Origin: an uncultured Dokdonia sp.
GTDB taxonomy: Bacteria; Bacteroidota; Bacteroidia; Flavobacteriales; Flavobacteriaceae
NCBI RefSeq assembly: GCF_947496725.1
Contig: NZ_CANMDS010000002.1
Span: 62,001 to 126,000, forward strand
Direction of reading: 5' to 3'
Length of the DNA stretch: 64,000 nt
Shown: positions 1,688-62,091 of the stretch, in pieces
Layout: every line of letters begins with the position of its first letter
How positions within the stretch are numbered: position 1 is the stretch's first letter
Notes under the pieces: model-generated
What the model was told of the DNA's origin: nothing
Databases searched by the model: none
Seen by the model: the letters and a program-made list of their open reading frames with translations, nothing else
Translations under genes and position numbers: made by a program

Positions 1688-2860
1688 ATGAAAACGCTAT
1701 TGCTACTTGCTGCTACCCTGGGAACACTCACAAACAGTATCGCAGGAGAACTTAAAGTGGAGAATTACGCTTTCGCGAAAGCGGAAACCTCATCACTACA
1801 CATCTCTACACCAAAACCTGACGCAAATACCATAAAAGTCGCTTTGCTGCTGGACACCTCAAATAGTATGGATGGTCTTATAGACCAGGCAAGGGCTCAA
1901 CTCTGGGAACTTGTAAACGAGCTCGCACTTGCAAAATGCGGCAATGACTCACAACCAGATCTTAAAATTGCCCTTTATGAATACGGTAATGATCGCCTTA
2001 ATGCAAGAGAGGGATACATTAGGATGGTGAGCGCCTTTAGCACAGATCTAGATGAGATTTCTAAAAATCTTTTCTCACTCACAACAAATGGTGGTAACGA
2101 GTATTGTGGTAATGTGATACAAACCTCGCTCAATCAACTAGACTGGGGTAAAAATGCAAACGACCTTAATTTAATATTTATAGCCGGAAATGAACCCTTT
2201 GACCAAGGGCCTATTACTTATGAAAGTGCTGCCAGCAATGCTTGCGGTAAGGATGTAACCATAAACACTATCTTTTGTGGTGACTATAACCAAGGTGTTA
2301 AAACACATTGGAAGGATGGTGCTGCACTTACAAAAGGTGACTACATCGCAATAAATAGCGACCGTACAACGGTACATATACCTTCTCCTTATGATGATGA
2401 GATTTTACATAAAAATGCTGCACTTAACAAAACCTATGTAGGGTATGGAAATCTTGCCTCGAGTAAGATGGCACTACAAAGCAGTCAAGATACTAATGCA
2501 GAGGCATATGGTAGTGCAAATGCCGTAAAAAGAGCCGTAAGTAAGAGCTCAAGATTATATAAAAATAGTAGCTGGGATCTTGTAGATGCGCTAGACGATA
2601 ATGAAGAAATTGTAGAAGAGCTTGAAGTATCAGAACTCCCCAAGGAATTAAAAGGAAAGGACGAAAAGGAAATAAAAGCATACATCGCTCAAAAAAAGAA
2701 AGAACGTAAAAAAATACAAGAGGAGATTGCCACTCTTAATAAGAAGCGTCAATCATATGTAGCCGCAAAGACAGATAAGAAAGATAACGAGCTGCGCAAC
2801 GCGCTTATTGAAGCAATAAAAAAACAGGGTAAAGTAAAAGATTACCACTGGGAAGAATAA
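1688..2860 (+). CDS. Secreted von Willebrand factor A domain protein
   Basis: The 390-residue protein begins with a signal peptide (about 1-19, ending SIAG). A vWA fold follows, with the MIDAS-type motif DTSNSM near residue 56. The C-terminal quarter is highly charged and predicted helical (EKEIKAYIAQKKKERKKIQEE), probably a coiled coil. vWA domains bind protein partners through a metal ion; the partner is not visible here. The palindrome repeat at 1768-1783 is translated in frame as AFAKA at residues 28-32, just after the signal peptide. A strong terminator follows, and an OmpA lipoprotein gene lies next on the same strand. The specific function is unknown. Confidence 0.75.
   Translation: MKTLLLLAATLGTLTNSIAGELKVENYAFAKAETSSLHISTPKPDANTIKVALLLDTSNSMDGLIDQARAQLWELVNELALAKCGNDSQPDLKIALYEYGNDRLNAREGYIRMVSAFSTDLDEISKNLFSLTTNGGNEYCGNVIQTSLNQLDWGKNANDLNLIFIAGNEPFDQGPITYESAASNACGKDVTINTIFCGDYNQGVKTHWKDGAALTKGDYIAINSDRTTVHIPSPYDDEILHKNAALNKTYVGYGNLASSKMALQSSQDTNAEAYGSANAVKRAVSKSSRLYKNSSWDLVDALDDNEEIVEELEVSELPKELKGKDEKEIKAYIAQKKKERKKIQEEIATLNKKRQSYVAAKTDKKDNELRNALIEAIKKQGKVKDYHWEE
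1768..1783. repeat. Palindrome CGCTTTCGCGAAAGCG, exact, coding copy
   Basis: Perfect 16-base palindrome read in frame as AFAKA (residues 28-32) just after the signal peptide of the vWA protein. Confidence 0.95.
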
Positions 2861-2880
2861 GTTTGATACATCTATATTAT

Positions 2881-2916
2881 AATTGCCTCTAGCGACAACT
2901 AGAGGCAATTTTTGTT
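2881..2916 (+). terminator. Intrinsic terminator after the vWA gene
   Basis: A 12-base-pair perfect stem (2881-2892 with 2899-2910) and six-base loop are followed by a T-rich run. Confidence 0.85.
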
Positions 2917-2990
2917 TTTATGATTCTCTTAACGTCTATACAAATCACTCTCGCCGTAAAAGATAGAAGTAAACACTAAACTAAAGATTT

Positions 2991-3872: not shown

Positions 3873-3897
3873 GTCTAGATAAAGTCTTAAAAACAAG

Positions 3898-3930
3898 AAT
3901 GCCTCATCAAATTGATGAGGCATTTTTTTG
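3898..3930. terminator. Bidirectional terminator between convergent genes
   Basis: Nearly continuous 13-base inverted repeat (3898-3910 with 3912-3924) followed by a T run on the + side. It lies between the OmpA lipoprotein and the convergent PorP/SprF gene. Confidence 0.85.
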
Positions 3931-3936
3931 TGATTA

Positions 3937-3952
3937 CGCTTTCGCGAAAGCG
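3937..3952. repeat. Palindrome CGCTTTCGCGAAAGCG, exact, intergenic copy
   Basis: Perfect copy with nine bases separating it from the stop codon of the PorP/SprF gene at 3962, and between that stop and the shared terminator. No T run follows, so it is not itself a terminator. Confidence 0.95.
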
Positions 3953-3961
3953 AGATAATAG

Positions 3962-6175: not shown

Positions 6176-6196
6176 ATTTATAATCTCACAAAATTA

Positions 6197-6236: not shown

Positions 6237-6252
6237 GTTAGAGTAACGCTTA

Positions 6253-7489: not shown

Positions 7490-8308
7490 TTACATTTTGA
7501 TATAGAAGTCTTTAACTAGTGATACATATGCATCCGTATAGTCGTGACGTGACTTTTCGATAATAAGCGTTGTTATCTCTGCGGGACTTTGCGGGGTTAC
7601 GCTTTCGCGAAAGCGGTCTTCTCCATCTACCACTTGTTCATCTTGAAAAGCAACTGAGAAAGACATAAGACTACGCTTTACTGGTGCGTCTGGGGTTCCT
7701 TTTACTCTGGTAATTCTTGTAGGCACAAGTTGTGCTCTAGAACATAGCAAAATAAAATCATCTTCACGCTCATAAGGGATTATCACGTTAAATGTACCTT
7801 CTGGCGAAAGCAGCTTTGCCACCGCTCCCACGAGTAATTCAAAAGGCATCGCAGACTCAAACCTTGCTTGCTCTCTTGCATCTTGGGCTGCACCATCATT
7901 TTGCGACTTTTCTTTTAATGCGTCTTGTGAGGCTTGTGTGAGATCTTCTGTATAAAATGGCGGGTTACAAACTATAAGGTCATACTCATCATCTACCTCT
8001 GCCGCAAACTCGTATAAATGTGCGTGGTAACAGAACAGACGATCGCCCCAGTCACTGTTTTCAAAATTTTCGGTAGCCTGCTCATAGGCATTATCATCTA
8101 GCTCAACGGCATCTATGGTTTGTGCATCGCAGCGCTGTGCAAGCATAAGTGCAATCACACCTGTGCCTGTCCCTATATCAAGTATGCTATCTGGGTAAGC
8201 CTCTGTAGACGTCCAAGCTCCTAGCAAGACACCATCTGTGCCTATTTTCATCGCACAGCGATCTTGAGCGATGGTAAACTGTTTGAATTTAAAGGGTTTT
8301 GATGACAT
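7490..8308 (-). CDS. trmN6: tRNA1(Val) A37 N6-methyltransferase
   Basis: The 272-residue SAM-dependent methyltransferase has motif I LDIGTGTGVIALMLA (about 43-57) and the N6-adenine catalytic motif NPPFY (about 115). It opens with the YfiC-like FKFKQFTIAQDRCAMKIGTDG. It methylates A37 of tRNA1(Val). Its ATG overlaps the rimM stop by one base (TAATG), which indicates translational coupling. The palindrome at 7600-7615 is read in frame as RFRES (about residues 232-236), in the less conserved C-terminal part. Confidence 0.88.
   Translation of the reverse strand: MSSKPFKFKQFTIAQDRCAMKIGTDGVLLGAWTSTEAYPDSILDIGTGTGVIALMLAQRCDAQTIDAVELDDNAYEQATENFENSDWGDRLFCYHAHLYEFAAEVDDEYDLIVCNPPFYTEDLTQASQDALKEKSQNDGAAQDAREQARFESAMPFELLVGAVAKLLSPEGTFNVIIPYEREDDFILLCSRAQLVPTRITRVKGTPDAPVKRSLMSFSVAFQDEQVVDGEDRFRESVTPQSPAEITTLIIEKSRHDYTDAYVSLVKDFYIKM
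7600..7615. repeat. Palindrome CGCTTTCGCGAAAGCG, exact, coding copy
   Basis: In-frame copy within trmN6, read in the RFRES frame. Confidence 0.95.
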
Positions 8309-10409: not shown

Positions 10410-10425
10410 CGCTTTCGCGAAAGCG
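10410..10425. repeat. Palindrome CGCTTTCGCGAAAGCG, exact, intergenic copy
   Basis: It begins nine bases after the lipoprotein stop codon and precedes the terminator. Here the symmetry extends three more bases on each side (TTA...TAA), giving a 22-base perfect palindrome at 10407-10428. Confidence 0.95.
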
Positions 10426-11263: not shown

Positions 11264-14200
11264 ATGTACCTCATTTTTGACACCGAAACTACGGGACTTC
11301 CAAAAAACTGGAACGCTCCTATTACAGACTCAGACAACTGGCCACGCTGTATACAGATAGCCTGGCAGCTGCACGATGAGATGGGACAAGTTATAGAGCA
11401 TCAAGATTATCTAGTAAAGCCAGAAGGCTTTGACATTCCCTATGATGCAGAGCGTATACACGGGATATCAACAGCCCTGGCAGAAAAAGACGGAGTCGCA
11501 CTCTCTGAGGTTCTTGAGAAGTTTAATATTGCATTATCTCAGGCAAAATATGTGGTGGGTCAAAACGTAGGTTTTGACACAAATATTATGGGTGCAGAGT
11601 TTCACAGACTCAACATTGGCAACGACCTGCAAGAGCTGCCCGTACTAGATACGTGTACAGAAAAAACGGCAACCCTTTGCCAGTTACCTGGAGGACGAGG
11701 TGGAAAATTTAAACTACCTACACTTACAGAGTTGCACAAACATCTTTTTGGTGAAGGTTTTGGAGAAGCTCACAATGCTACGGCAGATGTTGAGGCGACT
11801 ACGCGTTGCTTTTTAGAACTTATACGCCAGCGTGTATACACAAAAGAGGAGCTAGATGTACAGCCAGACTATTTTGATAGGTTCTCTCAAGCAAACCCGC
11901 AACCCATTGAGTTTATAGGACTCAAACACATCAATCTCAAAAAAGCCTCTGAGCGTATTGCTAAAAAACTAGCTGCACAAAATGAAGCCCCAGAAATATC
12001 ACAAACAGAACTAGAAGATAATGCTGCAAAGCTATCTGAGGTAAAGTTTGCTCATCTACATAATCACTCACAGTTTTCTATACTGCAGTCTACTGCTAGT
12101 GTACAAGACATTGTAAAGGCTGCTGCAGCTCAAAAAATGCCTGCAGTCGCTATGACAGATATGGGTAATATGATGGGAGCTTTTCACTTTACAAAAGCGG
12201 TAAAGTCACATAACGCAGGCGTAAAAAAAGCAAATGCCGCAGCCGTAGAGGCGGGAGAAGAACCGGAGAGAGTACCTCTTAAAGCCATTATTGGTTGTGA
12301 GTTTAACGTATGTGTAGACCACAAAAACAAAAGCCAGAAAGATAATGGGTACCAAATAGTGATCCTCGCCAAAAATAAAAATGGATATCAAAACCTCTGT
12401 AAAATGGCGTCTATTGCCTACACAGATGGTTTTTATTATGTACCTCGTATAGATCGTAATGTGATAATGCAATATCACGATGATCTTATTGTACTCACAG
12501 GTAACCTATATGGAGAGGTGCCTAGCAAAATACTTAACGTAGGCGAAAAACAAGCCGAGGAAGCGCTCGTTTGGTGGAAAGAACAGTTTGGTAATGATCT
12601 TTATGTTGAGTTAATGCGTCACGGGCAAGAAGATGAGGATAGAGTGATGCCTGTTTTACTCTCGCTTTCGCGAAAGCATAACATAAAAACTGTCGCATCA
12701 AACAATACTTTTTACATCGAAAAATCTGATGCAGATGCACACGACGTATTACTTTGTGTAAAAGATGGAGAAAAAGTGGCAACGCCAAAGGGTCGTGGTC
12801 GTGGCTATCGTTATGGCCTTCCTAATGATGAGTACTACTTTAAAAGTGGAGAGGAAATGAAAACCCTCTTTGCAGATGTGCCAGAAGCTATTTTAAATGT
12901 ACAAGAGGTTGTTGATAAAATTGAACCTTATGAACTTGCGAGAGACGTACTGCTTCCAGCTTTTGACATACCTCAAGAATTTGTATCTCCAGAAGATGCC
13001 ATAGATGGTGGAAAACGTGGTGAAAATGCTTTTTTAAGACATCTGGTTTATGAAGGTGCAAAAAAGCGTTATGGTGAAGAACTCTCAGAAGAAGTTACAG
13101 AACGTTTAGATTTTGAGCTTGACGTTATAGAAAAAACAGGATACCCGGGTTACTTCTTGATTGTAGAAGATTTTATACGCGAGGCTCGTAATATGGATGT
13201 ATCTGTAGGACCTGGTCGTGGATCTGCCGCGGGATCTGTTGCAGCATACTGTTTATGGATTACAAACATAGACCCGATGAAGTACGACCTACTTTTTGAG
13301 CGTTTCTTAAATCCGGATCGTGTGAGTATGCCCGATATTGATATTGATTTTGATGATGAAGGACGTGGACGTGTAATGCAATATGTAATAGATAAGTATG
13401 GAGCAAATCAAGTTGCACAAATTATTACATACGGTACAATGGCCGCAAAGTCTTCTATACGAGATACCTCTAGAGCACTAGATCTATCACTAGGAGATGC
13501 AGACCGTATTGCAAAGCTCATACCTACTATGAGTAAGCTGCGTAAGATATTTGGAAAAACAGATGCAGAGCTACGCAGCGCCTTTAGATCTGATGATCTT
13601 CCAAAAGTGCAGGAGCTTATTAATATAGAAACACAAGACAACCTGGAAGGGCAAATGCTCAGACAAGCACGCCAACTAGAGGGTTCTGTACGTAACACGG
13701 GGATACACGCCTGTGGAGTGATTATCACACCAGATGATATCACAAATTTTGTACCTGTTGCACTAGCAAAAGACTCAGATCTCTATGTAACACAGTTTGA
13801 CAACTCTGTAGTAGAAGAAGCTGGATTACTTAAGATGGATTTCTTGGGTCTGAAGACCCTTACTCTTATAAAGGACACTGTTAAGCTAGTAAAGTATCGC
13901 CACAATGTAGATCTGGATCCAGAGAACTTCCCTCTAGATGATGAAAAGACATATGAACTCTTCCAGCGTGGTGACACGATAGGGATTTTTCAATATGAAT
14001 CACCTGGTATGCAAAAGCATATGCAATCTCTTAAACCTACCGTTTTTGAAGATCTTATTGCAATGAATGCGCTGTATCGCCCGGGGCCAATGGAGTACAT
14101 CCCCTCTTTTGTAAGAAGGAAGCACGGAGAAGAAGATATTGAGTATGACTTACCAGCAATGGAAGAGTACTTAAAAGAAACCTATGGTATTACTGTATAC

Positions 14201-15655: not shown

Positions 15656-16054
15656 TTATGCCACATTACGAGGTGTCACTAGCTCTCTACGAATAAGTAT
15701 AGTCACTTCTTCTTTATAACTCTCTGTTTGTAACGTATAGGTAAATGCCTGTGGGTTCTCATCATTTCTCACACCTTGCATACTCGCTTGGTGCAAAAGA
15801 TAAGTGGCATAATTTGGATAACCTAGATACTTACAGAGCATCTCAATCATCTTTGCATTTGGCGATAGCTCTTCATTATCTCCATCTTCTATGTAATTAT
15901 TGTAATAATTAAGAAGTGTTCTTCTTGAGATTTGATAATTACACTCACACCAGAGACTAATTGCTAGGTGGTCTGCCCATTGTGTTTTTGTGTTTCCGGG
16001 GGTTTCTGTTTGCGCTTTCGCGAAAGCGGACAAAACAATTTTTCTAAACATCAT
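15656..16054 (-). CDS. Small protein of unknown function, possibly HTH-like
   Basis: A 132-residue cytoplasmic protein. The middle (TQWADHLAISLWCECNYQISRRTLLNYYNNYIED, about 24-57) and the following PNAKMIEMLCKYLGYPNYATYLL resemble the N-terminal part of some Bacteroidota proteins in which a helical, HTH-like unit ends in YLGYxNYxxY. No enzyme motif is present. The palindrome copy encodes AFAKA at residues 10-14. Its stop codon abuts the dnaE stop with no base between, and no terminator separates the two convergent genes. Function unknown. Confidence 0.6.
   Translation of the reverse strand: MMFRKIVLSAFAKAQTETPGNTKTQWADHLAISLWCECNYQISRRTLLNYYNNYIEDGDNEELSPNAKMIEMLCKYLGYPNYATYLLHQASMQGVRNDENPQAFTYTLQTESYKEEVTILIRRELVTPRNVA
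16013..16028. repeat. Palindrome CGCTTTCGCGAAAGCG, exact, coding copy
   Basis: AFAKA frame, residues 10-14 of the 132-residue unknown protein. Confidence 0.95.
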
Positions 16055-19417: not shown

Positions 19418-19433
19418 CGCTTTCGCGAAAGCG
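19418..19433. repeat. Palindrome CGCTTTCGCGAAAGCG, exact, intergenic copy
   Basis: Lies beyond the sucB terminator, 60 bases from the sucB stop, the most distant intergenic copy. Confidence 0.95.
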
Positions 19434-30466: not shown

Positions 30467-30482
30467 CGCTTTTGCGAAAGCG
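30467..30482. repeat. Palindrome variant (one internal change), intergenic copy
   Basis: CGCTTTTGCGAAAGCG, nine bases from the hflX stop codon, between hflX and udk. Confidence 0.8.
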
Positions 30483-39963: not shown

Positions 39964-39979
39964 CGCTTTCGCGAAAGCG
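39964..39979. repeat. Palindrome CGCTTTCGCGAAAGCG, exact, intergenic copy
   Basis: Between the DUF5689 stop codon (18 intervening bases) and its terminator. Confidence 0.95.
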
Positions 39980-39997: not shown

Positions 39998-41404
39998 TTA
40001 GTTTGCATTGATCTGTATCTCGTCAAGCTCAAAAGTACCATCAAAATCTGCATCACCAGACCCGCTGTATCTAAAAGCAACATAACCGTTAGACTCAATA
40101 CAAGAAAGATCTACAATACCTGAGTCTATCCAGTCTCCAAAGAAATCTCCATCATCTACAATCACTCCTGCAGGTAAAACATCCCAAGTAGCTGTTGCAA
40201 TAGTAGCCTCAGTACCGTCCCAATCACTAGAAAAAAGAAGGTCAAGCGTACTACCGTCTGAAAAACTGTTTGAAGTCATAAACTGAAGTGTCTCACCAGT
40301 ATTAGCTTGAAGATCTAGCATAGGTGTGATTAACCAAGCGATAGTGGCATCATCTCCAGACTGGAAAGACCCTACTCTTGCAGAAATACCTAAAGAGGCG
40401 TTTTGACCTCCACTAGAGTATGCCTCCCACGTTTCTGATCCTTCTTGCTGGTAGTTAGTCCATCCATTTCCAGATATTGGGCTATTTGTAGCTTGTGTCT
40501 CAAAGAAATCTTCAAAAAGAATTGTACTTCCTGCCGCATCTGCCACACCACAATCTATCTCTACCGGATCACAGCGCTCTGCTTGATCAAAAACTACGTC
40601 ATTTCTGTCGTTTATAGCAAGATTAAAGTCTTCTCCAAAGAAATTACGAGTAAGCACTCCAGAAATACTTCCGCGTCCCGTAGGAAGCGCTATAGACTTA
40701 AAATTTGCAAAGGTACTTGTGCTTAAAATAAGTGTTTGCTCTGTCGCACAACTAAAGATAGTGCGCTCTCCATCAAACTCGTCTAGTGGCTCACCTGCAT
40801 AAGTAAGACTTTCATCAATTACTTCTTCTTTTGCAAATTGAACATCTGTAAGTTTTATAAATATGTTTTCTAAATCTTCACTTAGGCTTGAGATGGTTGT
40901 CTCTACAGGAACAATAGTCTCTACCGTTGCAGATCGCTGTATGTAATCAAATTGTAGAGGAGCTGGTATCTTCTCAAGGTTGTTTGTAACTCCTAGTGTT
41001 AACACACCGTTACTTTCACCAAGGTGAAGACCTCCTAATTTTACAAATATCTTACGCCCTATCTCATAATACGTAAATAAAGGGCTCTCGTCTATTAAGA
41101 TTCGTACTCCTGCCGTAGGTGCTGTAGCGTTGTCTTGTATAATGATTTCTTCAAACCAGTTACCAGACTCATCACTGCTTATCACAAACCCCTCTACATA
41201 CTGTGTAGACTCAGTAAGATCTACCGTTTCTCCTTCTTGAAGAAATAAGTTTCTAAGTGCAGAAACAGAGATTACTTCACCATCAAGAACAGGATCTGTT
41301 GCGGTAAGATCTGGCGTGGCAAAATCATCATCTTGCACACAACTAGTAATAGTAAGCAACGCAATAATGGCTGCAAATACGTGGGTTAATTTTATTGTTT
41401 TCAT
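39998..41404 (-). CDS. DUF5689 lipoprotein with choice-of-anchor J domain
   Basis: The 468-residue protein has a lipoprotein signal (lipobox TITSC, Cys about 22). A DUF5689 domain follows (about 40-265, with YVEGFVISSDESGNWFEEIIIQD and KIFVKLGGLHLGE), OB-fold-like as in nucleic-acid-linked surface proteins. A C-terminal beta-sandwich (about 295-468, ILFEDFF...SGNGWTNY...WLITPMLD) matches choice-of-anchor J. Likely an outer-membrane-anchored surface protein that hands a ligand to the TonB receptor encoded just upstream (26-base gap). Ligand unknown; the divergent nuclease suggests nucleic acid. Confidence 0.85.
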   Translation of the reverse strand: MKTIKLTHVFAAIIALLTITSCVQDDDFATPDLTATDPVLDGEVISVSALRNLFLQEGETVDLTESTQYVEGFVISSDESGNWFEEIIIQDNATAPTAGVRILIDESPLFTYYEIGRKIFVKLGGLHLGESNGVLTLGVTNNLEKIPAPLQFDYIQRSATVETIVPVETTISSLSEDLENIFIKLTDVQFAKEEVIDESLTYAGEPLDEFDGERTIFSCATEQTLILSTSTFANFKSIALPTGRGSISGVLTRNFFGEDFNLAINDRNDVVFDQAERCDPVEIDCGVADAAGSTILFEDFFETQATNSPISGNGWTNYQQEGSETWEAYSSGGQNASLGISARVGSFQSGDDATIAWLITPMLDLQANTGETLQFMTSNSFSDGSTLDLLFSSDWDGTEATIATATWDVLPAGVIVDDGDFFGDWIDSGIVDLSCIESNGYVAFRYSGSGDADFDGTFELDEIQINAN

Positions 41405-41430: not shown

Positions 41431-44208
41431 TTAAAAGCGCACGTATGCGTTTACATAGTATGTTGTTCCTCTACCGAAGAAGAGACGATCACCAAAAACT
41501 GGGGTGTCTCTTTGTGCTTCTTCTAGGCTTGATCTATAATTTGCTCGTCTACTATCTTCAAAACCTCCAGTAATGTAGGTCTCATCTAGTACATTATTTA
41601 CAGTTGCAAAGAAGCCTACAAAGTAGTCTCCTACCCTCCAAGATTTACCTCCTATAATATTTACCAAAAAGTAGTCATCTATTTCTGTCTGTCTTAGTAA
41701 ATCTCTCGCTACATCTGTATCATAATCATTAAATGGCTGCCCATCTATGTCTTGATTAAAGTTTGCCGTTCTAGCTAGATTACTAAAGTCTATGTATGAA
41801 TTTGAGAAGTAGTTTACTGTAAGTCCAAAGTTCCAGAATTCTGGGTCTCTATACTCAAAACCTAGTTGGTAGGCTCTTTCTGGTCCTCCTGCAACGTGCA
41901 AATCTTTAATAGCAGTTGTCCCATCACCAAAGGTTTGAGGCCCCTCAAAATCATCTGATGTATAATATATATTAGGATTATTTGCATACGTGTATTGCCC
42001 TACAGATGCTGCAGCCTTAAGTTTAAGAGTAGGTAATACCTGCGCTTCTATACCTAGCTCTGCTCCTATATTTCTACGTTCTACATTTGTAAGAACCTCT
42101 TGAACAAAAGAAGCTTCTGTACCAGCTATACTATTTTGTGTAAAGAAGAAACCTATGTCTGTTCCTTTTTGAAAACCAGTATAAAACCCAGTAAGACGTC
42201 CCTTTACTATAGGTGATCTAAAAATATAACTTGCATCTACACTCTGTATTTGCTCTGACTCTAAGCCTATCACTACGTCATTGTTTTGACGCGCATTACT
42301 AAAGCTATTTCGTATACCTGGAGCCACAGAATAATATCCTGCATTTACATCTATAAGGTGACGCCCAGATAATTTATAGGTTGCACCCGCTTTAATTCCT
42401 CCGTTTGTAAACGAAAGTTTTTCACTAGGTCCAAAAGAGCGACTACCTGTAAAATTTCCGTTCTCATAGAGTCCAGTGCGCTGGTATGATGTATTACTTG
42501 CTGTACCAGACACATAAAAATCTACTTTATTATAAGTAAACTGTGCCTGCGCAAAGCCAGAAACTACGGTCGCATCCATATCATAATTATACTTATAGCG
42601 ATCACCCTCTACTACTACTCTATTAGGGTTACGCACATCACTCTGTGCAAGATCTCCATCTTGACCGTCTTGACTCTCACTTACAGAAAAGTTATCTATA
42701 TCTAGAAAACCATCTCCACCTAGTAGGTCGCTTACTTGTGCATAATTTTCGCTCTTTAATCCTCTATAGCTCACATTACCATCTATAGTGATAGCGTCTG
42801 TTACTTGAGAGTTAATAATCACATTTGCACTAAGCTGGCTATCATCTATCACATCATCCTGAAGTATGATATTAGAATTGCCTCCATTAGCATTTGCTTG
42901 ATATAAAGAATTCCAATCAAATTGACCATCATTTATAAAGTCCTGCTCTAGTAGGTATGCATTCTGAAAATCATATGCCGTAGGATTAGGATCTTGTAAA
43001 GCATAACTAGGCAAAAGTTGATAATAGTTTGGCGCTGGATTTCTCAAGCTACCATTATCTACTCTACCACTTTTTATAGAACCAAACTGGTAGCCCAGGT
43101 TTGAGTTGATTGTTGTTTTATCGCTTAATGTCCAGTAGTGATTAAGCATAAAAACAGGCTCTTCTATCTCTCGCTCTCTTGTATTACGCTTCTCACCATC
43201 TTGATAACCCCAAAAAGGATTATACGTTCTTCCTTTTAGGTCAAACTGCTCTTCTGTAATAGCTGTCGCTCTACCACGTCTGTTAGGCGTATAGAATCCC
43301 GTAAAGTTTAAACTATGAGCATCATTTATTTTTTTCTCGACAGAGAGATACATAGAGTTTGCATCATATAATGTTCCATCTTGAAAACCTTCTTCTCCAA
43401 AGCGTCTTGCTAGTAACACACTATATGCCCATCCGTTTGAATTAAGACCAGAATTATAGCTTGCCATCACTCTACCTTGATATGAGGCATTTGCCGCAGC
43501 ATATGATATTCTACCTCCCTCTCGTTCTTGTGAAGCTCGCATTACGATATTTGTCACCCCTGCGAGACCTCCAAAGCTATATTCACTAGGAGTAAGCCCT
43601 TGAGAAAATTCGCGATTACGCTGTGCGTCATTTAGTCCTCCCCAGTTACCCCATTGTGGTCTACCGTTAAACTGTTTATTCATCTCAATCCCGTTAATGA
43701 GCACTTTGCCATTTGCATTATCGAGACCTCTAGGTCTAAAAAAAGTTGCACTCCAGTCAAAAGCGGCTGCGCTTAAAAAAGCATCGCGACCGGCAGATAG
43801 AAGTCCTGACACATTAAAGTTACCTAGATCATCATCACCACTGTTAAGATCATTATCAGAAAGTGAGATTAACCCTATTTGCTGCTGCTCTGCAGAGATG
43901 TCTACATCTAGTGTAATCACATCAAGATTGAGCGTTTGCCCAGTCGTAAGAATAATAGGAAGCCTCTTGGTGATAAAACCATTTTTTAAAACCAAAAGAA
44001 TCTGATCTCCTTCCTGGGTTAAGTTTTTAAGTACAAATACTCCCATAGCATTTGTCATTGTTTCTGCAGCGCTCTTTTCGAGACGTAAAGTAACGTCTGG
44101 AAGCGGCTCAGAGGTGATGGCATCCATCACCGTTCCTTTTATTTGTGTTTGCGACCACGCTGTGGCTGCTAGAAACACACATAAAAGTGATAAAGTAAAT
44201 TGCTTCAT
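41431..44208 (-). CDS. TonB-dependent receptor with carboxypeptidase-like N-domain
   Basis: The 925-residue protein has a signal peptide (about 1-19), a carboxypeptidase-regulatory-like domain (about 20-100) and a plug domain (about 130-225, with VLINGIEMN and GGLAGVTNIVMRAS). A beta barrel ends in the aromatic terminus NAYVRF. It imports a ligand across the outer membrane using TonB energy. It is co-transcribed with the DUF5689 lipoprotein. Its promoter is back to back with that of a secreted nuclease, so all three are probably controlled together. Confidence 0.92.
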   Translation of the reverse strand: MKQFTLSLLCVFLAATAWSQTQIKGTVMDAITSEPLPDVTLRLEKSAAETMTNAMGVFVLKNLTQEGDQILLVLKNGFITKRLPIILTTGQTLNLDVITLDVDISAEQQQIGLISLSDNDLNSGDDDLGNFNVSGLLSAGRDAFLSAAAFDWSATFFRPRGLDNANGKVLINGIEMNKQFNGRPQWGNWGGLNDAQRNREFSQGLTPSEYSFGGLAGVTNIVMRASQEREGGRISYAAANASYQGRVMASYNSGLNSNGWAYSVLLARRFGEEGFQDGTLYDANSMYLSVEKKINDAHSLNFTGFYTPNRRGRATAITEEQFDLKGRTYNPFWGYQDGEKRNTREREIEEPVFMLNHYWTLSDKTTINSNLGYQFGSIKSGRVDNGSLRNPAPNYYQLLPSYALQDPNPTAYDFQNAYLLEQDFINDGQFDWNSLYQANANGGNSNIILQDDVIDDSQLSANVIINSQVTDAITIDGNVSYRGLKSENYAQVSDLLGGDGFLDIDNFSVSESQDGQDGDLAQSDVRNPNRVVVEGDRYKYNYDMDATVVSGFAQAQFTYNKVDFYVSGTASNTSYQRTGLYENGNFTGSRSFGPSEKLSFTNGGIKAGATYKLSGRHLIDVNAGYYSVAPGIRNSFSNARQNNDVVIGLESEQIQSVDASYIFRSPIVKGRLTGFYTGFQKGTDIGFFFTQNSIAGTEASFVQEVLTNVERRNIGAELGIEAQVLPTLKLKAAASVGQYTYANNPNIYYTSDDFEGPQTFGDGTTAIKDLHVAGGPERAYQLGFEYRDPEFWNFGLTVNYFSNSYIDFSNLARTANFNQDIDGQPFNDYDTDVARDLLRQTEIDDYFLVNIIGGKSWRVGDYFVGFFATVNNVLDETYITGGFEDSRRANYRSSLEEAQRDTPVFGDRLFFGRGTTYYVNAYVRF

Positions 44209-44343: not shown

Positions 44344-45396
44344 ATGAAACTAAAAGTACTCGCCTTATCTGGTTTACTGACTGTTACCGCTTTCGCGAAA
44401 GCGCAACAAGACAAAACCTATCGTGCACATACCATTGCCTTTTACAATGTAGAAAACCTCTTTGATACAGAAAATGACCCCATCACTTATGATGATGATC
44501 GCACACCAGATGGAAAGGATCACTGGACCGAAGAAATCTATCAAGATAAAGTAAGCAAGATGGCGCGCGTCATTTCAGAAATAGGAGCAGATGTAACAAA
44601 TAATGCTCCCGCACTCATAGGCCTTGCAGAAATTGAAAATAGAAAAACAGTAGAAGCACTAGCAAATGATCCAAAACTACTTGCTAAGGATTACGGCATT
44701 GCTCATTTTGACTCTCCAGATAGACGAGGGATTGATGTAGCACTTATGTATCAAAAAGCGCTTTTTAAACCGACTAACATTAGCAAGCACGAGCTCCTTA
44801 TATATGATAATGTTGACACAAGTAAAAGAGTGTACACGCGTGACCAGCTCTTGGTTTCTGGCCTGCTGGATGGTGATATGATACACGTGATTGTAAATCA
44901 CTGGCCATCTCGCTCTGGTGGAGAAGCACGAAGTCGTAAAAAACGTATCGCCGCTGCCGAACTTAATATGAAGATAATTGACAGTTTGCAGAGCAATGAC
45001 CCCTATGCAAAGATCATTACAATGGGAGATCTCAACGACGACCCTACAAGCCCTAGCGTTAAGAAAACAATAAAAGCGTCTGGAAAGAAAGAAAAAGTCA
45101 AAGATGATATGCTTTACAACCCTATGGAGCCTATGTTTAAAAAAGGGATTGGTACACTCGCCTATCGTGATGGTTGGAATCTTTTTGACCAGATTATTAT
45201 AAGCGCACCTTTGCTTGACAAGGATTTTAGCACATACCGCTATTATAAAGCAGGTATTTATAATAAGAACTACTTAAGCAACCCTAAAGGGCGTTATAAA
45301 GGATACCCTTACAGAAGCTTTGCAAATGGAGGGTACACAGGAGGGTACAGTGACCATTTCCCCGTGTATGTATACCTTATTAAAGAAGATCAATAA
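44344..45396 (+). CDS. Secreted endonuclease/exonuclease/phosphatase family protein
   Basis: The 350-residue EEP-fold enzyme has FYNVENLFDTENDP, LIGLAEIENRKTVE (catalytic Glu), HFDSPDRRGIDVALMY, VNHWPSRSGGE, TMGDLNDDP and GYSDHFPVY (catalytic Asp-His). An N-terminal signal peptide (about 1-20) marks it as exported. Its AxA cleavage site is supplied by the palindrome (AFAKA, residues 16-20). It probably cuts extracellular nucleic acid or phosphodiesters. Divergent from the TonB/DUF5689 pair, which may take up the products. Paralogue at 31788-32774. Confidence 0.88.
   Translation: MKLKVLALSGLLTVTAFAKAQQDKTYRAHTIAFYNVENLFDTENDPITYDDDRTPDGKDHWTEEIYQDKVSKMARVISEIGADVTNNAPALIGLAEIENRKTVEALANDPKLLAKDYGIAHFDSPDRRGIDVALMYQKALFKPTNISKHELLIYDNVDTSKRVYTRDQLLVSGLLDGDMIHVIVNHWPSRSGGEARSRKKRIAAAELNMKIIDSLQSNDPYAKIITMGDLNDDPTSPSVKKTIKASGKKEKVKDDMLYNPMEPMFKKGIGTLAYRDGWNLFDQIIISAPLLDKDFSTYRYYKAGIYNKNYLSNPKGRYKGYPYRSFANGGYTGGYSDHFPVYVYLIKEDQ
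44388..44403. repeat. Palindrome CGCTTTCGCGAAAGCG, exact, coding copy
   Basis: AFAKA frame, residues 16-20, at the signal-peptide cleavage site of the secreted nuclease. Confidence 0.95.
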
Positions 45397-45471: not shown

Positions 45472-45487
45472 CGCTTTCGCGAAAGCG
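45472..45487. repeat. Palindrome CGCTTTCGCGAAAGCG, exact, intergenic copy
   Basis: Between the nuclease terminator and the stop codon of the convergent membrane protein gene (38 intervening bases). Symmetry extends one base on each side. Confidence 0.95.
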
Positions 45488-49521: not shown

Positions 49522-51132
49522 CTACAATTTATAACGCTCTAGTAATGTTCTAGTTGAGCTATCGTGAGACGTCATCTCATCGCTATCTATATCAGATAAA
49601 ACTTGTTTGGCAAGTTGTTTTCCTAACTCTACACCCCACTGATCAAAGGAGTAGATGTTCCATATTATGCCTTGTACAAAAATCTTATGTTCATACATTG
49701 CTACTAACGCTCCTAGACTCTCTGGTGTTAATGCCTCACCAAGTATAGTTGTAGTAGGTTTATTTCCTTCAAAAACTTTAAAAGGGGCTAGCTCTTCTAT
49801 TGCTTCAGGACTTAAACCTCCATCTTGCAATTCAGTAATTACTTGATCTTTTGTTTTACCATTCATTAAAGCTTCTGTTTGTGCAAAAAAGTTTGCCATA
49901 AGCTTGTCGTGATGACTCTTCTCCCCGTGCAATGATTTTTTAAAACCTATAAAATCTGCCGGTATTAATTTTGTCCCTTGATGAATAAGCTGAAAGAACG
50001 CGTGCTGGCTATTTGTACCCGGCTCTCCCCATATAATATTACCTGTTTCATAAGAAACACGCTCTCCATTGCGGTCTACACTCTTACCATTACTCTCCAT
50101 AATAGCTTGCTGTAAATATGCGGGAAGTCTATGTAAGTATTGAGAATAAGGTATTACAGCCTCTGTCTCTACTTTAAAGAAGTTATTATACCACACACTA
50201 AGCAGTGCTGTTATTACAGGTAAATTCTTATCAAAAGATGTGTTTTTAAAATGCTCGTCCATTTTAAACGCGCCGTGTAGTAAGCCTTTAAAATTATCAT
50301 ACCCTACAGCAAGTGCAATAGAAAGACCTACAGAGCTCCATAGCGAAAATCTACCTCCTACCCAGTTCCACATAGGGAATACGTTATCTGAGGAGATTCC
50401 AAAGTTTGCAATAGCTTCTGCATTTGTAGAGATTGCAACAAAATGATTTTTTACAGCATCTTCTCCTACTTTATCTACAAACCACTTACGCACGGTTGTA
50501 GCATTGCTAAGTGTCTCTTGTGTAGTAAATGTTTTTGAAACTATGACAAACAATGTGGTCTCTGGATCAAGATCTTTAATGGTTTCCATCACGTGGTCAC
50601 CATCTACATTTGATATAAAGTGTGTGTTGAGACGTGTCTTATAATATTGTAAAGCCTCTACTACCATTACTGGACCTAGATCAGAACCTCCTATACCTAT
50701 ATTTACAACATCTGTAATTTCCTTTCCTGTAGCTCCTTTATGTGCCCCAGAAATCACCTTTTCGGTAAAGGTCTGTATTGATTTTTTTACGGCATCTACT
50801 TCCGCTTTCGCGAAAGCGTTATCACTCTCATCACGAAGTGCGGTGTGCATTACAGCACGCCCTTCGGTGGCGTTAATTTTTTTACCACCAAAAAAACTAT
50901 CTATAGCCTCTTGTAAGCCTACCTCTTGAGCCAGCTTGAGTAGAAGAGTCATTGTCTCTTCTGTAATTCTGTTTTTACTATAATCTACATAAAATGTATC
51001 CCAAAGAATTGAAAAATCTTCTGCACGCTTATCATTTTTAAAAAGATCTGTAAGATGTGTGTCTTTTATCTCTTCATAATGCGCTTGCAAGTCTTTCCAA
51101 GCTGCGGTAGTAGTTGGGTTTATATTTTTCAT
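49522..51132 (-). CDS. pgi: Glucose-6-phosphate isomerase
   Basis: The 536-residue enzyme has [34 protein letters not shown], the signature region [14 protein letters not shown] and [24 protein letters not shown]. It ends with the catalytic Lys in [13 protein letters not shown]. It interconverts glucose 6-phosphate and fructose 6-phosphate. The palindrome at 50803-50818 encodes AFAKA at about 106-110 in a surface segment before [11 protein letters not shown]. It lies 18 bases after the M23 peptidase gene in the same direction. Confidence 0.97.
50803..50818. repeat. Palindrome CGCTTTCGCGAAAGCG, exact, coding copy
   Basis: AFAKA frame, about residues 106-110 of Pgi. Confidence 0.95.
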
Positions 51133-52458: not shown

Positions 52459-53397
52459 TTAAACGTCCTTTCCCCAGTTTGCAAGCTCTTCTTCACTCCA
52501 GACATCTGGAAAGAAAATGCGACGCTGGTACTTAGGGTGCATATATTTGGTCCATTCACTGCCGCCTGTTGCTTCTACAACTTTTTTACCATTATTGAGG
52601 TAATGATTTGCTGCGTGATAGTGTGACATCACCCAGGTTACATTTACTGTATAATCATAATGGCGCATTGCATCCAGCAGCTTCTTATCTTCACGAGCTT
52701 CCTTAGGCAAGCTTTTAAAGCGAGCGTACAAATTTATGGTATTATATTCTTTTGTAAAGGCGACAAAGTCGTTTTTATATTTTGCCTCAAAGGCAGAGAG
52801 TAAATATGACTTTTTACCCGTGTTGTAATCTTTTCCGGCTGCTTGCCAGTACAAGTGTTCTAACGCGTGCTCGTAAGGAGTATTGCGATCTATGCTTTCG
52901 CGAAAGCGGGCATCTATAAGGTTTATTAAATCTGTACTTGCAAACTCAATCTTTCTGTACTGCGCGCTTTGAAAACCACTTGCTGGTGTAAGTGTTTTTC
53001 TAAACTTCATATACTGCTCTATTTCCATTCCTTCTTGCATTATGCTAAAAGAACTGGTGAGCATATCAAAATAACGACTTATACGGTCCAAACGAGAGCT
53101 AAAAAAATCTACCGTAAGATCTGGGTGATGAGCAACCTGCTCTATCTCCCATAGTATCATTTTAAATAAAAGCTCGTTAACCTGGTGGTACATCACAAAT
53201 ACATTCTCATCTGGAAAGTTTGTGCGCGGTATCTGTAAACTTAAGAGTGCATCTGTATGGATATAATCCCAGTAAGTAATGGGTTTACTTTGTAACAAGC
53301 CCTCAAGGTGATCGTCTAGATCTTGATCTATTTTTTCATACTTATCATCAAGCTGATTGATGATTTTTTCAATATCTGGCTGTATGGTTTTCTTCAT
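52459..53397 (-). CDS. kynA: Tryptophan 2,3-dioxygenase
   Basis: The 312-residue heme dioxygenase has FVMYHQVNELLFKMILWEIEQ (catalytic His), SGFQSAQYRKIEF, and the heme-ligand His region VTWVMSHYHAANHYL near 255. A C-terminal EATGGSEWTKYMHPKYQRR matches the substrate loop. It opens tryptophan to N-formylkynurenine. The palindrome variant at 52893-52908 encodes RFRES at about 164-168, replacing a variable helix-helix loop. No other kynurenine gene is in the window. Confidence 0.95.
   Translation of the reverse strand: MKKTIQPDIEKIINQLDDKYEKIDQDLDDHLEGLLQSKPITYWDYIHTDALLSLQIPRTNFPDENVFVMYHQVNELLFKMILWEIEQVAHHPDLTVDFFSSRLDRISRYFDMLTSSFSIMQEGMEIEQYMKFRKTLTPASGFQSAQYRKIEFASTDLINLIDARFRESIDRNTPYEHALEHLYWQAAGKDYNTGKKSYLLSAFEAKYKNDFVAFTKEYNTINLYARFKSLPKEAREDKKLLDAMRHYDYTVNVTWVMSHYHAANHYLNNGKKVVEATGGSEWTKYMHPKYQRRIFFPDVWSEEELANWGKDV
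52893..52908. repeat. Palindrome variant (first base T), coding copy
   Basis: Inner 14 bases intact. RFRES frame in kynA. Confidence 0.9.
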
Positions 53398-54453: not shown

Positions 54454-54469
54454 CGCTTTCGCGAAAGCG
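54454..54469. repeat. Palindrome CGCTTTCGCGAAAGCG, exact, intergenic copy
   Basis: Nine bases from the hpd stop codon. With its flanks (54451-54482) it matches 57041-57072 at 31 of 32 bases. Confidence 0.95.
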
Positions 54470-55712: not shown

Positions 55713-55728
55713 ATTTTTCGCGAAAGCG
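55713..55728. repeat. Degenerate palindrome copy (right half intact), intergenic
   Basis: ATTTTTCGCGAAAGCG, three changes in the left arm, eight bases from the hmgA stop. The block 55719-55737 (CGCGAAAGCGTAACCACCC) is identical to 10416-10434. Confidence 0.8.
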
Positions 55729-57043: not shown

Positions 57044-57059
57044 CGCTTTCGCGAAAGCG
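57044..57059. repeat. Palindrome CGCTTTCGCGAAAGCG, exact, intergenic copy
   Basis: Twelve bases from the ATP-grasp stop codon. Symmetry extends one base on each side. Flanks nearly identical to the hpd copy. Confidence 0.95.
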
Positions 57060-57977: not shown

Positions 57978-58003
57978 CTTGATCTATTATTAATATATTA
58001 TTC

Positions 58004-59257
58004 TTAAAACTTTCTGTCTGGATGGAGCATATCTAAGACAACACTAGATGTTTTATTATCTATAATTTCTTGGACTAACTTACCTGTACTAGGTCCTAGT
58101 GTCCAACCCATCATAGCGTGACCAGTTGCGATTGTTAGGTTATCACACTTAGCACTTTTACCTATGTACGGCATCCCATCTGCAGATACAGGTCTAAGAC
58201 CGCACGCAGCGGCTTCCTTTTCTTGCGATGTAATACGCACCTCTGGGAAGTACTTGTTTACTCCCTGGGCTATTGCCTCTACTCGTGTTTTATTAATAGT
58301 GTGATTAATACCAGCAATCTCCATTGTTCCGGCAAATCTAGTAAAACCATTCATAGGTGTGATGGCTACTTTTGCTTCGGCAAGTATGGCTGGATAGGTA
58401 ATTCCCGTGGGAGTTTTAGTCTGTATGCGATACCCTTTTCCGGCTTGTAGTAGGAGGTTAATATTAAGCTTTCGCGAAAGCGTACTCGTCCAGCTACCAG
58501 CAGCTAGCACAAACTCATCTGCCGTGAGTACTTCTTTATCTGTTTGCACGCTGGTTATCTTACTGCCAGCAGTTGTTATATCAAGTACTTTTTCTTCTTG
58601 CCTAATAACGACTCCCTCACCTAATAAATATGATTTTATCTCCTCCATAAACTCACCGGGTGTGCTATGATGGTCACACTCAAAGTAGGAAGCTCCTACG
58701 ATATCTAGCGCAGTTCCTGGCATCATTTTCTGTACCTCCTGAGCCGTTATTGTTTTTGCTTGAAGGCCTTCTTTACTTGCGATTTGCACTAACTCATCTT
58801 CGTGATGCAGGGCTTTTTCTGTATGGCAGAGCATTAACAATCCTTTTTTCTCAATATGAAATGAGAAGCCCTCTTCTTTTTTTATCTGGTGATAGAGATC
58901 TCTGCCCATAACCGCCATTTCTCTCATTACCGGTATGGAGCGATGCACGTGATTTTGATTACAAGACTTATTAAAAGCAAGAGACCATTTTAAGAAGTCT
59001 GCATTAAGTCGTGGCTTTATATACAGCGGACTCTTTTTATTAAACATCCACTTTACTCCTTGCTTCATAACCCCTGGAGCTGCGAGCGGAATTAAGTGAC
59101 TGGGCGACATATAACCGGCGTTTACATAACTGGCTCCATCACTCATTTTAGATTGATCTATAATAGTAACCTGATGTCCAGCCTTGTGTAGAAAATAAGC
59201 ACAGCTCACTCCTACAATGCCCCCTCCTATTATGATAATATGCTTTGCCATAGTCAA
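58004..59257 (-). CDS. FAD-dependent D-amino-acid (probably D-hydroxyproline) dehydrogenase
   Basis: The 417-residue DAO-family protein has a Rossmann motif IIIGGGIVGVSCAYFLHKAG at the N terminus, GASYVNAGYMSP, and a C-terminal FAD motif near NLTIATGHAMMGWTLGPSTG. It resembles DadA and the single-subunit cis-4-hydroxy-D-proline oxidase. It lies 15 bases after a 4-hydroxyproline epimerase, so I infer oxidation of cis-4-hydroxy-D-proline to pyrroline-4-hydroxy-2-carboxylate. The palindrome variant at 58467-58482 encodes LSRK at about 259-263. The start could be M3 (MAKHIIIIGG). Confidence 0.87.
   Translation of the reverse strand: MTMAKHIIIIGGGIVGVSCAYFLHKAGHQVTIIDQSKMSDGASYVNAGYMSPSHLIPLAAPGVMKQGVKWMFNKKSPLYIKPRLNADFLKWSLAFNKSCNQNHVHRSIPVMREMAVMGRDLYHQIKKEEGFSFHIEKKGLLMLCHTEKALHHEDELVQIASKEGLQAKTITAQEVQKMMPGTALDIVGASYFECDHHSTPGEFMEEIKSYLLGEGVVIRQEEKVLDITTAGSKITSVQTDKEVLTADEFVLAAGSWTSTLSRKLNINLLLQAGKGYRIQTKTPTGITYPAILAEAKVAITPMNGFTRFAGTMEIAGINHTINKTRVEAIAQGVNKYFPEVRITSQEKEAAACGLRPVSADGMPYIGKSAKCDNLTIATGHAMMGWTLGPSTGKLVQEIIDNKTSSVVLDMLHPDRKF
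58467..58482. repeat. Palindrome variant (first base A), coding copy
   Basis: Inner 14 bases intact. LSRK frame in the FAD oxidoreductase. Confidence 0.9.
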
Positions 59258-59272
59258 GACCTTTTGTGTTTT

Positions 59273-60280: not shown

Positions 60281-60378
60281 TTATGATTCTGCAATGTTTT
60301 GACTAGTGTGAGGTTAGCTATAAATCAATTAAATTACATAGGAATAAAAGGCATAAACGCTAGCTAAACCTTACACTG

Positions 60379-62091
60379 TCAATTACTTTTTTGTATCCAA
60401 TCTTTTACTCTTCGATCTAAAATAGCCAGAGTTACAGTACCCTGTTCTAAAATAATCTCGTGAAAATCTCTTATATCAAAACGACTGCCCAGCTCTTTTT
60501 CTGCAAGTGTTCTTAGTTCTCTTATTTTGAGTTCACCCATTTTATAAGCTAGTGCTTGCCCTGGCCAGGATATATATCTATCTGTTTCTGTTTGAATCTC
60601 GTGTAGTGACAATGCGGTATTTTGTGACATAAAGGCTACTACCTCTTCACGAGTCCAACCTTTTGCGTGTATACCAGTATCTACAACTAACCGGCACGCA
60701 CGCCACATCTCATAGGTAAGTTGACCAAAACGCTCATACGGTGTTGTATACATACCCATCTCTGCTGCCAGATACTCACAGTATAAGCCCCAGCCCTCGC
60801 CATAGGCATTTACATACATATTACGCCTAAACTGAGGAATACTATCACCCAACTCTTGATTAAGCGCCCCCTGTAGGTGATGGCCCGGCACAGCCTCGTG
60901 CACAGTAAGAGATGGCAGTGTGTAAAGGGTCCTACTAGGTAAGTCGTAGGTGTTTACCCAGTAATAACCTGGGCTTGTGCTTCCCTTTGGACTACCTACA
61001 TATCGCCCTCCAGTATACTTAGGTGCAATTGCATCTGGTACTGGTGCGACACCATAGGGCTTGCGTGGTAATGTTTTAAAAAACCGAGGCAGTTGCGCAT
61101 CTGCACGCTTTGCCATATCACGTGCAATCATTAAAAGTTGCTCAGGAGTTTTGGCATAAAACTGCTCATCTTCACGCAGGAATTTTAAAAAATCTGCAAA
61201 GCTTCCTTTAAAAGCTACTTCTTTTATAATCTTTTCCATCTCGCTTTTTATGCGAGCAACCTCTTCAAGTCCTTTGTTATGAACAGCATCTGCCGTGATA
61301 TCTAATGTAGTATAATAACGTATACGGTTTTGATAATAGGCGTCTCCATTAGGGGTTTCAGATACTCCTATGGTAGTGCGTGTGTTAGGAAAATATTCAT
61401 TTTCAAAAAAAGCCTTTACACTTTTAAATGCTGGAACCACACTGTTTTCTATAGCTAGCTTTGCTGCGGTTTCTAAAGAATCCTTCTGCTCTTCTGTTAT
61501 TGACTCTGGAAGATTTAAAAAAGGTGTGTAGTAAAAACTGTCTTTATAATCTGCTACAATTTGTGAGTTATAAGTACTCTCATACCCTTCAAAAATAACT
61601 CGCGGCTGCGACACGCCTTTTTTTATTCCTTCTCTTAGTAATGGTACATATTGATTTACCACCTCTGGCAAAGCATTTAACTTGTCAAGATACTTTACAG
61701 CTTGCTTGTATGAGGTGATAGGCCGCACCATATAGTTCCAACTGCTATGAAAACCTGAGTCAGACAGTAGCGGATTTAAAAAGCGTTCATACTCATAGTA
61801 GTCTACGGTTTCTTGCAGCTTAAATTTTAATAGCTCGAGAGATATCCTTTCCGTTTCTGACAAGGTTTTTGGCGAGATGGTATTAAGTTTTTTGAGTTGC
61901 GCTTTCGCGAAAGCGGACTCCTTCCCAAATCGCTCTTTTGAAAACACCCCCAGTGGATGCACTTCCTTACTACCCTCGTTCCATTTAAAACTTTGTGACG
62001 CCTCAACACATTGCTTGAGCTGCTCTGTAGCAGTTTGTGCAATAGTCGTTATAGTCATAAAAAAGGCTATCACCCACACTAAATATCTCAT
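60379..62091 (-). CDS. DUF885 family secreted metallopeptidase-like protein
   Basis: The 570-residue protein has a signal peptide (about 1-18) and the DUF885 helical fold. The HExxxGHxxQ motif TVHEAVPGHHLQGALNQ (about 392) and the downstream Glu in NAYGEGWGLYCEYLA form a zinc peptidase site. Related proteins cleave peptides in the periplasm. The palindrome encodes AFAKA at residues 60-64. It begins one base after the aldehyde dehydrogenase gene ends. Within a hydroxyproline operon it may release proline/hydroxyproline from peptides; that is inference. Confidence 0.87.
   Translation of the reverse strand: MRYLVWVIAFFMTITTIAQTATEQLKQCVEASQSFKWNEGSKEVHPLGVFSKERFGKESAFAKAQLKKLNTISPKTLSETERISLELLKFKLQETVDYYEYERFLNPLLSDSGFHSSWNYMVRPITSYKQAVKYLDKLNALPEVVNQYVPLLREGIKKGVSQPRVIFEGYESTYNSQIVADYKDSFYYTPFLNLPESITEEQKDSLETAAKLAIENSVVPAFKSVKAFFENEYFPNTRTTIGVSETPNGDAYYQNRIRYYTTLDITADAVHNKGLEEVARIKSEMEKIIKEVAFKGSFADFLKFLREDEQFYAKTPEQLLMIARDMAKRADAQLPRFFKTLPRKPYGVAPVPDAIAPKYTGGRYVGSPKGSTSPGYYWVNTYDLPSRTLYTLPSLTVHEAVPGHHLQGALNQELGDSIPQFRRNMYVNAYGEGWGLYCEYLAAEMGMYTTPYERFGQLTYEMWRACRLVVDTGIHAKGWTREEVVAFMSQNTALSLHEIQTETDRYISWPGQALAYKMGELKIRELRTLAEKELGSRFDIRDFHEIILEQGTVTLAILDRRVKDWIQKSN
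61900..61915. repeat. Palindrome CGCTTTCGCGAAAGCG, exact, coding copy
   Basis: AFAKA frame, residues 60-64 of the DUF885 protein. Confidence 0.95.

Follow-up and report, generated by a model that had tools for sequence, protein, structure and literature searches.

A selected 16-base palindrome distributed throughout Dokdonia genomes: a possible tag for self-DNA

The window analysed here is a stretch of 64,000 nucleotides from an uncultured Dokdonia sp. of the family Flavobacteriaceae. It carries many copies of a 16-base perfect palindrome, CGCTTTCGCGAAAGCG. Up to three mismatches, 21 copies are found: 15 are exact, five have one mismatch (starts at 12663, 22697, 30467, 52893 and 58467) and one, at 55713, has three. 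A preliminary description of this DNA had reported 21 copies, 15 of them exact, and all were recovered where it had placed them. It regarded two copies as more degenerate; this holds for 55713, and the copy at 30467, with a single internal mismatch, is less degenerate than described. The claimed rarity by chance was also found, since dinucleotide-shuffled versions of the window give 0.12 matches on average and 2 at most. The list of open reading frames (ORFs) assigns 12 copies to coding and 9 to intergenic sequence, in agreement with the earlier count. Of the 20 sites with no more than two mismatches, our own simple gene caller, which delimited genes here in place of a standard program, puts 11 inside genes. 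The two copy-free gaps noted earlier, at 31.8-39.9 kb and 45.5-50.8 kb, are real, and long ORFs sit in them (1256 aa, 33009-36779; 1091 aa, 46074-49349). The copies are listed below, without strand, together with their state in aligned relatives (G numbers designate genomes).

1768..1783, palindrome copy, exact, coding; retained in 4 of 4 aligned relatives
3937..3952, palindrome copy, exact, convergent genes on either side; G001 alone of 5 aligned relatives has it
7600..7615, palindrome copy, exact, coding; core unchanged in 6 of 6 aligned relatives, flanks with indels
10410..10425, palindrome copy, exact, intergenic, with a stop codon 10 bp before it
12663..12678, palindrome copy, one mismatch, within dnaE; inner 14 bases shared by all 7 aligned relatives, G207 among them
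16013..16028, palindrome copy, exact, coding (AFAKA); G004 and G007 have these five amino acids but no motif
19418..19433, palindrome copy, exact, convergent genes on either side
22697..22712, palindrome copy, one mismatch, coding (2-oxoglutarate dehydrogenase E1)
25848..25863, palindrome copy, exact, coding (methylmalonyl-CoA mutase); core unchanged in 5 of 5 aligned relatives
30467..30482, palindrome copy, one internal mismatch, intergenic; perfect in G001 and G008, lacking in G005
31802..31817, palindrome copy, exact, coding, at the start of an endonuclease/exonuclease/phosphatase family gene
39964..39979, palindrome copy, exact, convergent genes on either side, adjoining the DUF5689 gene
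44388..44403, palindrome copy, exact, in an endonuclease-family protein, N-terminal signal-peptide-like region (TAFAKAQQ)
45472..45487, palindrome copy, exact, convergent genes on either side
50803..50818, palindrome copy, exact, coding; G004, G005 and G007 show substitution instead of deletion
52893..52908, palindrome copy, one mismatch, coding
54454..54469, palindrome copy, exact, intergenic
55713..55728, palindrome copy, degenerate, three mismatches, intergenic
57044..57059, palindrome copy, exact, intergenic
58467..58482, palindrome copy, one mismatch, coding
61900..61915, palindrome copy, exact, coding

The motif is not peculiar to the window. The Dokdonia genome G000 (3.29 Mb, 121 contigs) contains 711 exact copies, or one per about 4.6 kb, and none of the same pattern read backwards. 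About 200 scrambled palindromes of equal composition gave no exact or one-mismatch match in three stretches. Such strong genome-wide over-representation is expected of the DNA uptake sequences (DUS) of Neisseriaceae and the uptake signal sequences (USS) of Pasteurellaceae. Because 711 copies stand against 0 in the control, the motif is neither near chance expectation nor confined to one acquired region, the two outcomes that the preliminary description had held to be fatal to its proposal. The count in related genera, for which it had also called, shows the motif in all 18 genomes searched of the genus Dokdonia (g1), with 138 to 711 copies each. At least one copy is present in 48 of 397 sampled genomes of the family. 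Large numbers are confined to Dokdonia, to genus g11 (448-579 copies, three genomes) and to genus g191 (153 copies, one genome); the next highest count is 13. The inner 12-mer, counted in 395 genomes from the order, has an agreeing distribution (937, 917, 586, then 19). We found no paper containing the exact 16-mer in the literature searched.

A DnaE search of named genomes placed Dokdonia sp. at the top (98%), with other Flavobacteriaceae at 76% or below. Among 80 named DnaE loci, an exact or one-mismatch motif is found in that of Dokdonia alone; a copy with two mismatches is in one Flavobacterium locus. DnaE identity to Dokdonia is 69-70% for g11 and 76% for g191. The DnaE tree was built from this one gene with 107 of the 108 loci, and its support values were not printed. 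Dokdonia and g191 are sisters in it, Leeuwenhoekiella (zero copies in 24 kb) branches next, and g11 is distant. The identical 16-bp tag is thus abundant in at least two separate lineages, and its specificity has therefore moved between them, arisen twice or been lost repeatedly. In the sister-genus genome G207 (g191; loci L153-L160), copies are fewer and more degenerate, their spacing is indistinguishable from random and their flank bias is weak, as if the tag were decaying.

The statistics that follow rest on stretches of genomes: 464 kb of the 3.29 Mb of G000, 440 kb of G001, 265 kb of G005, 270 kb of G007, 100 kb of G027, 60 kb of G410 and 160 kb of G207 (a further 20 kb of G207 entered the alignment of relatives only). 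Gene-family tests on motif carriers covered 16 of the 22 motif-rich genomes seen. In G000, the motif is densest between genes (1.06 per kb), intermediate in the first 150 bp of genes (0.52) and sparse in their remainder (0.154). Nevertheless 71 of 127 sites are coding, and 40 of these 71 use the reading frame that gives AFAKA. Sites with at most two mismatches are evenly spaced. Against a null matched for intergenic, gene-start and gene-rest classes, the coefficient of variation (CV) of the spacing in G000 is 0.515, compared with 1.05 +/- 0.09. The corresponding values are 0.743 and 1.15 for G001, 0.395 and 0.96 for G027, and 0.403 and 0.94 for G410. Among syntenic stretches, that of G005 is even (CV 0.53).

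Alignments with up to seven relatives show that copies differ by substitution and not by insertion, as at 16013 and 50803. Some of the motif-making substitutions are synonymous, AFAKA at 16013 being encoded without the motif in G004 and G007. Substitution origin is again what is expected of DUS and USS. Exact G001 sites are identical at 30 of 40 aligned G005 positions, where general identity is 82%, and 8 more are unaligned; G005 sites are identical at 36 of 44 aligned G007 positions, with 6 more unaligned. Perfect copies outnumber one-mismatch copies in six of the seven genome samples: 116:25 in G000, 79:26 in G001, 50:17 in G005, 47:14 in G007, 14:3 in G027 and 12:7 in G207, the exception being G410 (7:8). 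Density is lower in accessory than in core DNA in G001 (0.077 per kb, 2 sites in 25.9 kb, vs 0.282) and in G007 (0 in 11.8 kb vs 0.236), though not in G005. The element is real, genome-wide and selected.

Its context extends beyond the palindrome. A bias in base composition reaches about 25 bp to either side of the 16-mer, the 5' strand being poor in C, which gives a symmetric footprint of about 60 bp overall. In Dokdonia, C makes up 2-12% at 14 of the 15 positions nearest the core and 18% at position -1, for a background of 19%; T and G are raised where C falls. The same C-poor bias is seen in g11, and weakly in g191. On the gene strand of 121 coding sites, C is reduced on the 5' side (0.104 vs 0.177) and G on the 3' side (0.108 vs 0.214). 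Left and right flanks are complementary above expectation at 3 of 12 printed positions, not at the other 9. Since the bias is symmetric in gene orientation and there is no clear covariation, the flanks represent a context at the DNA level and not an RNA stem; we therefore rejected an RNA hairpin or terminator, although the single strand can fold. The flank sequence itself is unconserved, with identity of 0.72-0.88 within 10 bp vs 0.77-1.00 at the core in six comparisons. Within the motif, the ends are the most variable positions.

The motif also accumulates in some phages, as expected of DUS and USS. A scan of viral contigs, chosen for presence of the motif so that motif-free phages are uncounted except for relatives looked up separately, gave 41 stretches in 30 records with an exact copy. 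About 8 of the 41 are single matches in G+C-rich contigs and may be due to chance. Seven of the 30 records have 4 to 7 inner 14-mers in 24-40 kb, some of them being near-identical to one another. Seven of ten tested proteins of motif phages match phage families (portal, head protease, sheath, tape measure twice, one of them weakly, integrase and primase); the integrase is in L201. At 34 distinct phage sites, flank C is 0.09-0.16 vs 0.20. Three related phages have portal identities of 100/68/65% and main DNA blocks 62-68% identical. One site is common to all three at an orthologous position. Of the four aligned sites of the first phage, one is kept in the second and two in the third; the third also retains both of the second phage's aligned sites. 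Within the tape-measure family (16 loci), the six loci with identity of at least 63% all carry a perfect or one-mismatch copy, and the ten at 54% or less all lack a copy within three mismatches. There were zero copies in a 25-kb stretch of Winogradskyella phage Peternella_1 and in a 16-kb stretch of Flavobacterium phage 1H. The first motif-phage family is distantly related to Peternella_1, which has a Mu-like annotation. Because of this distant kinship, resident prophages are plausible carriers of the motif; the phages are metagenomic, and their hosts may be motif-bearing bacteria in which they would be lysogenic. In other genera, small clusters of copies recur at fixed distances of 933, 2446 and 3460 bp in genomes otherwise nearly free of the motif. 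The one cluster examined, a heavy-metal efflux cluster with several exact copies (L169 4985-15737 in G095; L170-L172), is taken to be a transferred island.

These features invite comparison with known systems, for which the papers cited here are represented by excerpts. The DUS receptor ComP is a pilin, and to our knowledge uptake specificity has been described in Neisseriaceae and Pasteurellaceae only, both pilus users. As described in the excerpted text, USS have a strong consensus, perfect copies in excess, no origin as insertions, subclade types and AT-rich flanking motifs thought to permit kinking or strand separation (PMC1626085); in Pasteurellaceae, their density is higher in the core genome than in accessory DNA, and they build up in prophages (PMC6776037). 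The Dokdonia motif resembles them in its hundreds of copies, perfect-copy excess, substitution origin, biased flanks, clade-specific types and phage accumulation. Unlike USS, it is palindromic, its flanks are symmetric, its density is lower and the pilus is missing; for these reasons we call it uptake-sequence-like and do not file it as DUS or USS. It shares with DUS the logic of a self-DNA tag and the use of differing sequences by related genera, called 'dialects' in the title of PMC3630211. DUS are asymmetric and have no flanking motifs according to the excerpt of PMC1626085, unlike the Dokdonia motif.

Three genes in the window are of interest with respect to DNA uptake:

39998..41404, minus strand, DUF5689 gene (Pfam PF18942, 177 bits); lipoprotein-like invariant Cys22 in its product
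41431..44208, minus strand, carboxypeptidase-regulatory-like domain protein, 925 aa, the domain being as named for RA0C_RS04915
44344..45396, plus strand, endonuclease/exonuclease/phosphatase family protein adjoining the DUF5689/outer-membrane pair, with the motif in its N-terminal region

In Riemerella, transformation requires a DUF5689 protein and an adjoining predicted outer-membrane carboxypeptidase-regulatory-like protein, according to PMC8459023. The adjacent pair of the window has the same domains and was likened by them, not by direct sequence comparison, to RA0C_RS04920/RA0C_RS04915, which act with ComEC, DprA, ComF and RecA in the Riemerella system. By this analogy, the DUF5689 protein is a candidate surface DNA receptor and the 925-aa protein a candidate outer-membrane DNA channel. 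The former is over the cut-off of the NCBIfam choice_anch_J model and below that of the M949_1556 lipoprotein model. Riemerella columbina takes up its own DNA preferentially, and k-mer counts up to 10 gave A/T-rich words (excerpts of PMC7965970); no uptake sequence for Riemerella was met in the literature seen. The DUF5689 family is present in 44 of 46 genomes. Its family profile has one weak match among solved structures (E 0.8), the partner has none at E up to 1, and a single-sequence structure model of the DUF5689 protein (predicted local distance difference test, pLDDT, 32) was not used further. The DUF5689 gene has seemingly been exchanged between lineages, the allele of G003, from the same genus as G000, being only 44% identical to that of G000 and its neighbour 71%. 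The palindrome lies near the start of each of the two endonuclease/exonuclease/phosphatase family genes of the window (31788-32774 and 44344-45396). Elsewhere in the window (11264-15655), DNA polymerase III alpha (1463 aa) has an N-terminal epsilon-like exonuclease region in the same protein.

We give about an even chance to the reading that the motif is a palindromic, uptake-sequence-like tag of self-DNA that is read by a non-pilus system. Of the readings that the preliminary description had left side by side, uptake has gained circumstantial support from the perfect-copy excess, substitution origin, even spacing and phage retention. Uptake itself, a binding protein and drive are what we infer from these patterns. 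A surface or periplasmic protein would bind the site on incoming DNA, probably as a dimer, given the perfect palindrome. The C-poor, T/G-rich 5' flanks on both strands may ease bending or opening over about 60 bp. Site-bearing DNA would then be taken up and recombined more often, so that point mutations creating sites could spread and be kept at about one per fragment. Retention of about one site per fragment would account for the regular spacing as well as for the surplus of perfect copies. Temperate phages resident in the cell may gain sites likewise. A non-pilus reader, for example the DUF5689/outer-membrane pair of the window, is proposed because most of the motif-bearing genomes tested are without the pilus ATPase.

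Several observations weigh against this reading. Spacing is only weakly even in the syntenic stretch of G007 (CV 0.80, P 0.028), marginally even in a 260-kb part of G001 (CV 0.82, P 0.055) and indistinguishable from random in G207. No compensating gains of sites were seen near lost sites, and compensatory turnover was rejected. Accessory density is not low in G005 (0.284, 7 sites in 24.6 kb, of which 6 lie in a single unaligned edge, vs 0.25 in the core). USS and DUS cores are asymmetric in the excerpt of PMC1626085, and the Dokdonia motif is palindromic. Reading by a type IV pilus-type machine, expected of DUS and USS, was not found: the ATPase of pili and type II secretion systems (PF00437) is below cut-off or absent in 10 of 16 motif-bearing genomes tested, including G000 and G001. 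Pilus uptake was rejected on this ground, the ATPase being over the cut-off in the other 6 only. Neither the DUF5689 tree nor that of the outer-membrane protein follows the motif. G003, with 630 copies, has the divergent DUF5689 allele mentioned above, and the outer-membrane proteins of motif-free G025 and G026 are nearer to those of Dokdonia (67% in a partial match and 57%) than are those of g11 (53-56%). The DUF5689 protein as a simple specificity gene is therefore unsupported by its tree, and the pair stays a candidate uptake machine that may or may not set specificity.

Another class of explanation places the reader inside the cell. The motif could be the site of a chromosome-organising or other intracellular DNA-binding dimer, present about once per 3-5 kb, that shapes or segregates the nucleoid and handles phage sites like host DNA. 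Noc and ParB sites are likewise palindromes of 14-16 bp spread over a chromosome, and a perfect palindrome, even spacing, a symmetric footprint of about 60 bp and sites kept by some phages would all suit such a protein. However, the Dokdonia motif has about ten times more copies than Noc sites and a half-site spacing that differs from parS, perfect copies exceed one-mismatch copies 116:25, and the patchy distribution is odd for a core function. All 36 genomes have ParB_N, as one canonical copy. In addition, G002, G014, G029 and G034 have a second, long ParB_N and G035 has a short, weak one; these extra copies, in 5 of 36 genomes, do not follow the motif. A ParB/Noc paralogue was thus rejected as the reader, and the organiser suggested in the preliminary description, accompanied by no additional gene of this type, is unlikely. 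A Chi-like self marker would also act within the cell: each strand's copy would stop an end-resecting helicase-nuclease and load RecA, so that tagged host or phage DNA survives breaks. The spacing of one copy per about 4.6 kb and the retention by some phages are consistent with this, as is the T/G-rich 5' flank, which would become the 3' tail for RecA, a protein that prefers GT-rich DNA. Chi sites as known are short sequences with an orientation and are recognised in single-stranded form, but the motif is a 16-bp palindrome without orientation. RecC (PF04257) is found in 0 of 46 genomes, so that Chi recognition by RecBCD was rejected and only AddAB-type enzymes could serve. We regard this explanation as quite improbable.

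The palindrome could instead be created and kept by DNA methylation and mismatch repair, as in cyanobacterial highly iterated palindrome 1 (HIP1, GCGATCGC). The excerpt of PMC4390886 describes HIP1 as a palindrome with very many copies, tolerated in genes, most variable at its ends and replaced by alternate palindromes in relatives, all of which recalls the Dokdonia motif. The two differ in sequence and length, and a methylation model offers no evident reason for the wide flank bias, which is unlike HIP1, or for the even spacing. There is also no common C5 methyltransferase: PF00145 is found in 7 of 16 motif carriers and is absent from G000, G002, G004, G007, G008, G016, G017, G258 and G207. 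C5 methylation was therefore rejected; N6-adenine and N4-cytosine enzymes lie outside this test. The HIP1 comparison of the preliminary description is thus weakened, and we consider a HIP1-like origin very unlikely. Finally, hundreds of identical copies might suggest a mobile-element remnant or a repeat of the repetitive extragenic palindrome or miniature inverted-repeat transposable element type, copied around the genome. Yet orthologous alignments show substitution rather than insertion, flanks differ from copy to copy, and with 71 of 127 G000 sites coding, the motif does not behave as an extragenic insert. This origin is hardly credible.

Other words are enriched in other genera. WTTTCCGAAG exceeds its reversed control in G093 (703 vs 35), G295 (635 vs 62), G300 (517 vs 45) and G029 (442 vs 41). 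By hand count, 21 of 237 genera have 100 copies or more and a count at least three times the control. It may be another tag dialect. Because its spacing was not even in three small samples and it does not track the trees of receptor candidates, it is kept as a lead only. In G303, TTAAAA or TTAATA stands in front of 5 of 12 copies (WTTTCCGAAG loci L314-L319). Another word, GATTAAAGATTA, was counted 16 times (L033) and 14 times (L039) within 24 kb in two named genomes.

More broadly, and with less confidence than we have in the self-DNA tag as such, Dokdonia and a distantly related genus of its family may share what would be, as far as known, the first uptake sequence of Bacteroidota, a palindrome set in a symmetric 60-bp context and read independently of pili, perhaps via the DUF5689/outer-membrane pair. 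Other genera would have other tags, and the identity of the tag would be exchanged horizontally and decide which flavobacteria have genes and phages in common. This wider picture is tentative. If true, a pilus-independent palindromic tag in Bacteroidota would represent a separate evolution of a self-DNA language and would offer a route to the missing DNA receptor of this phylum. The motif may also serve as a tracer of phages and of transferred islands such as the metal-efflux cluster. Whatever protein reads the motif, more than 700 sites in the G000 genome are under selection.

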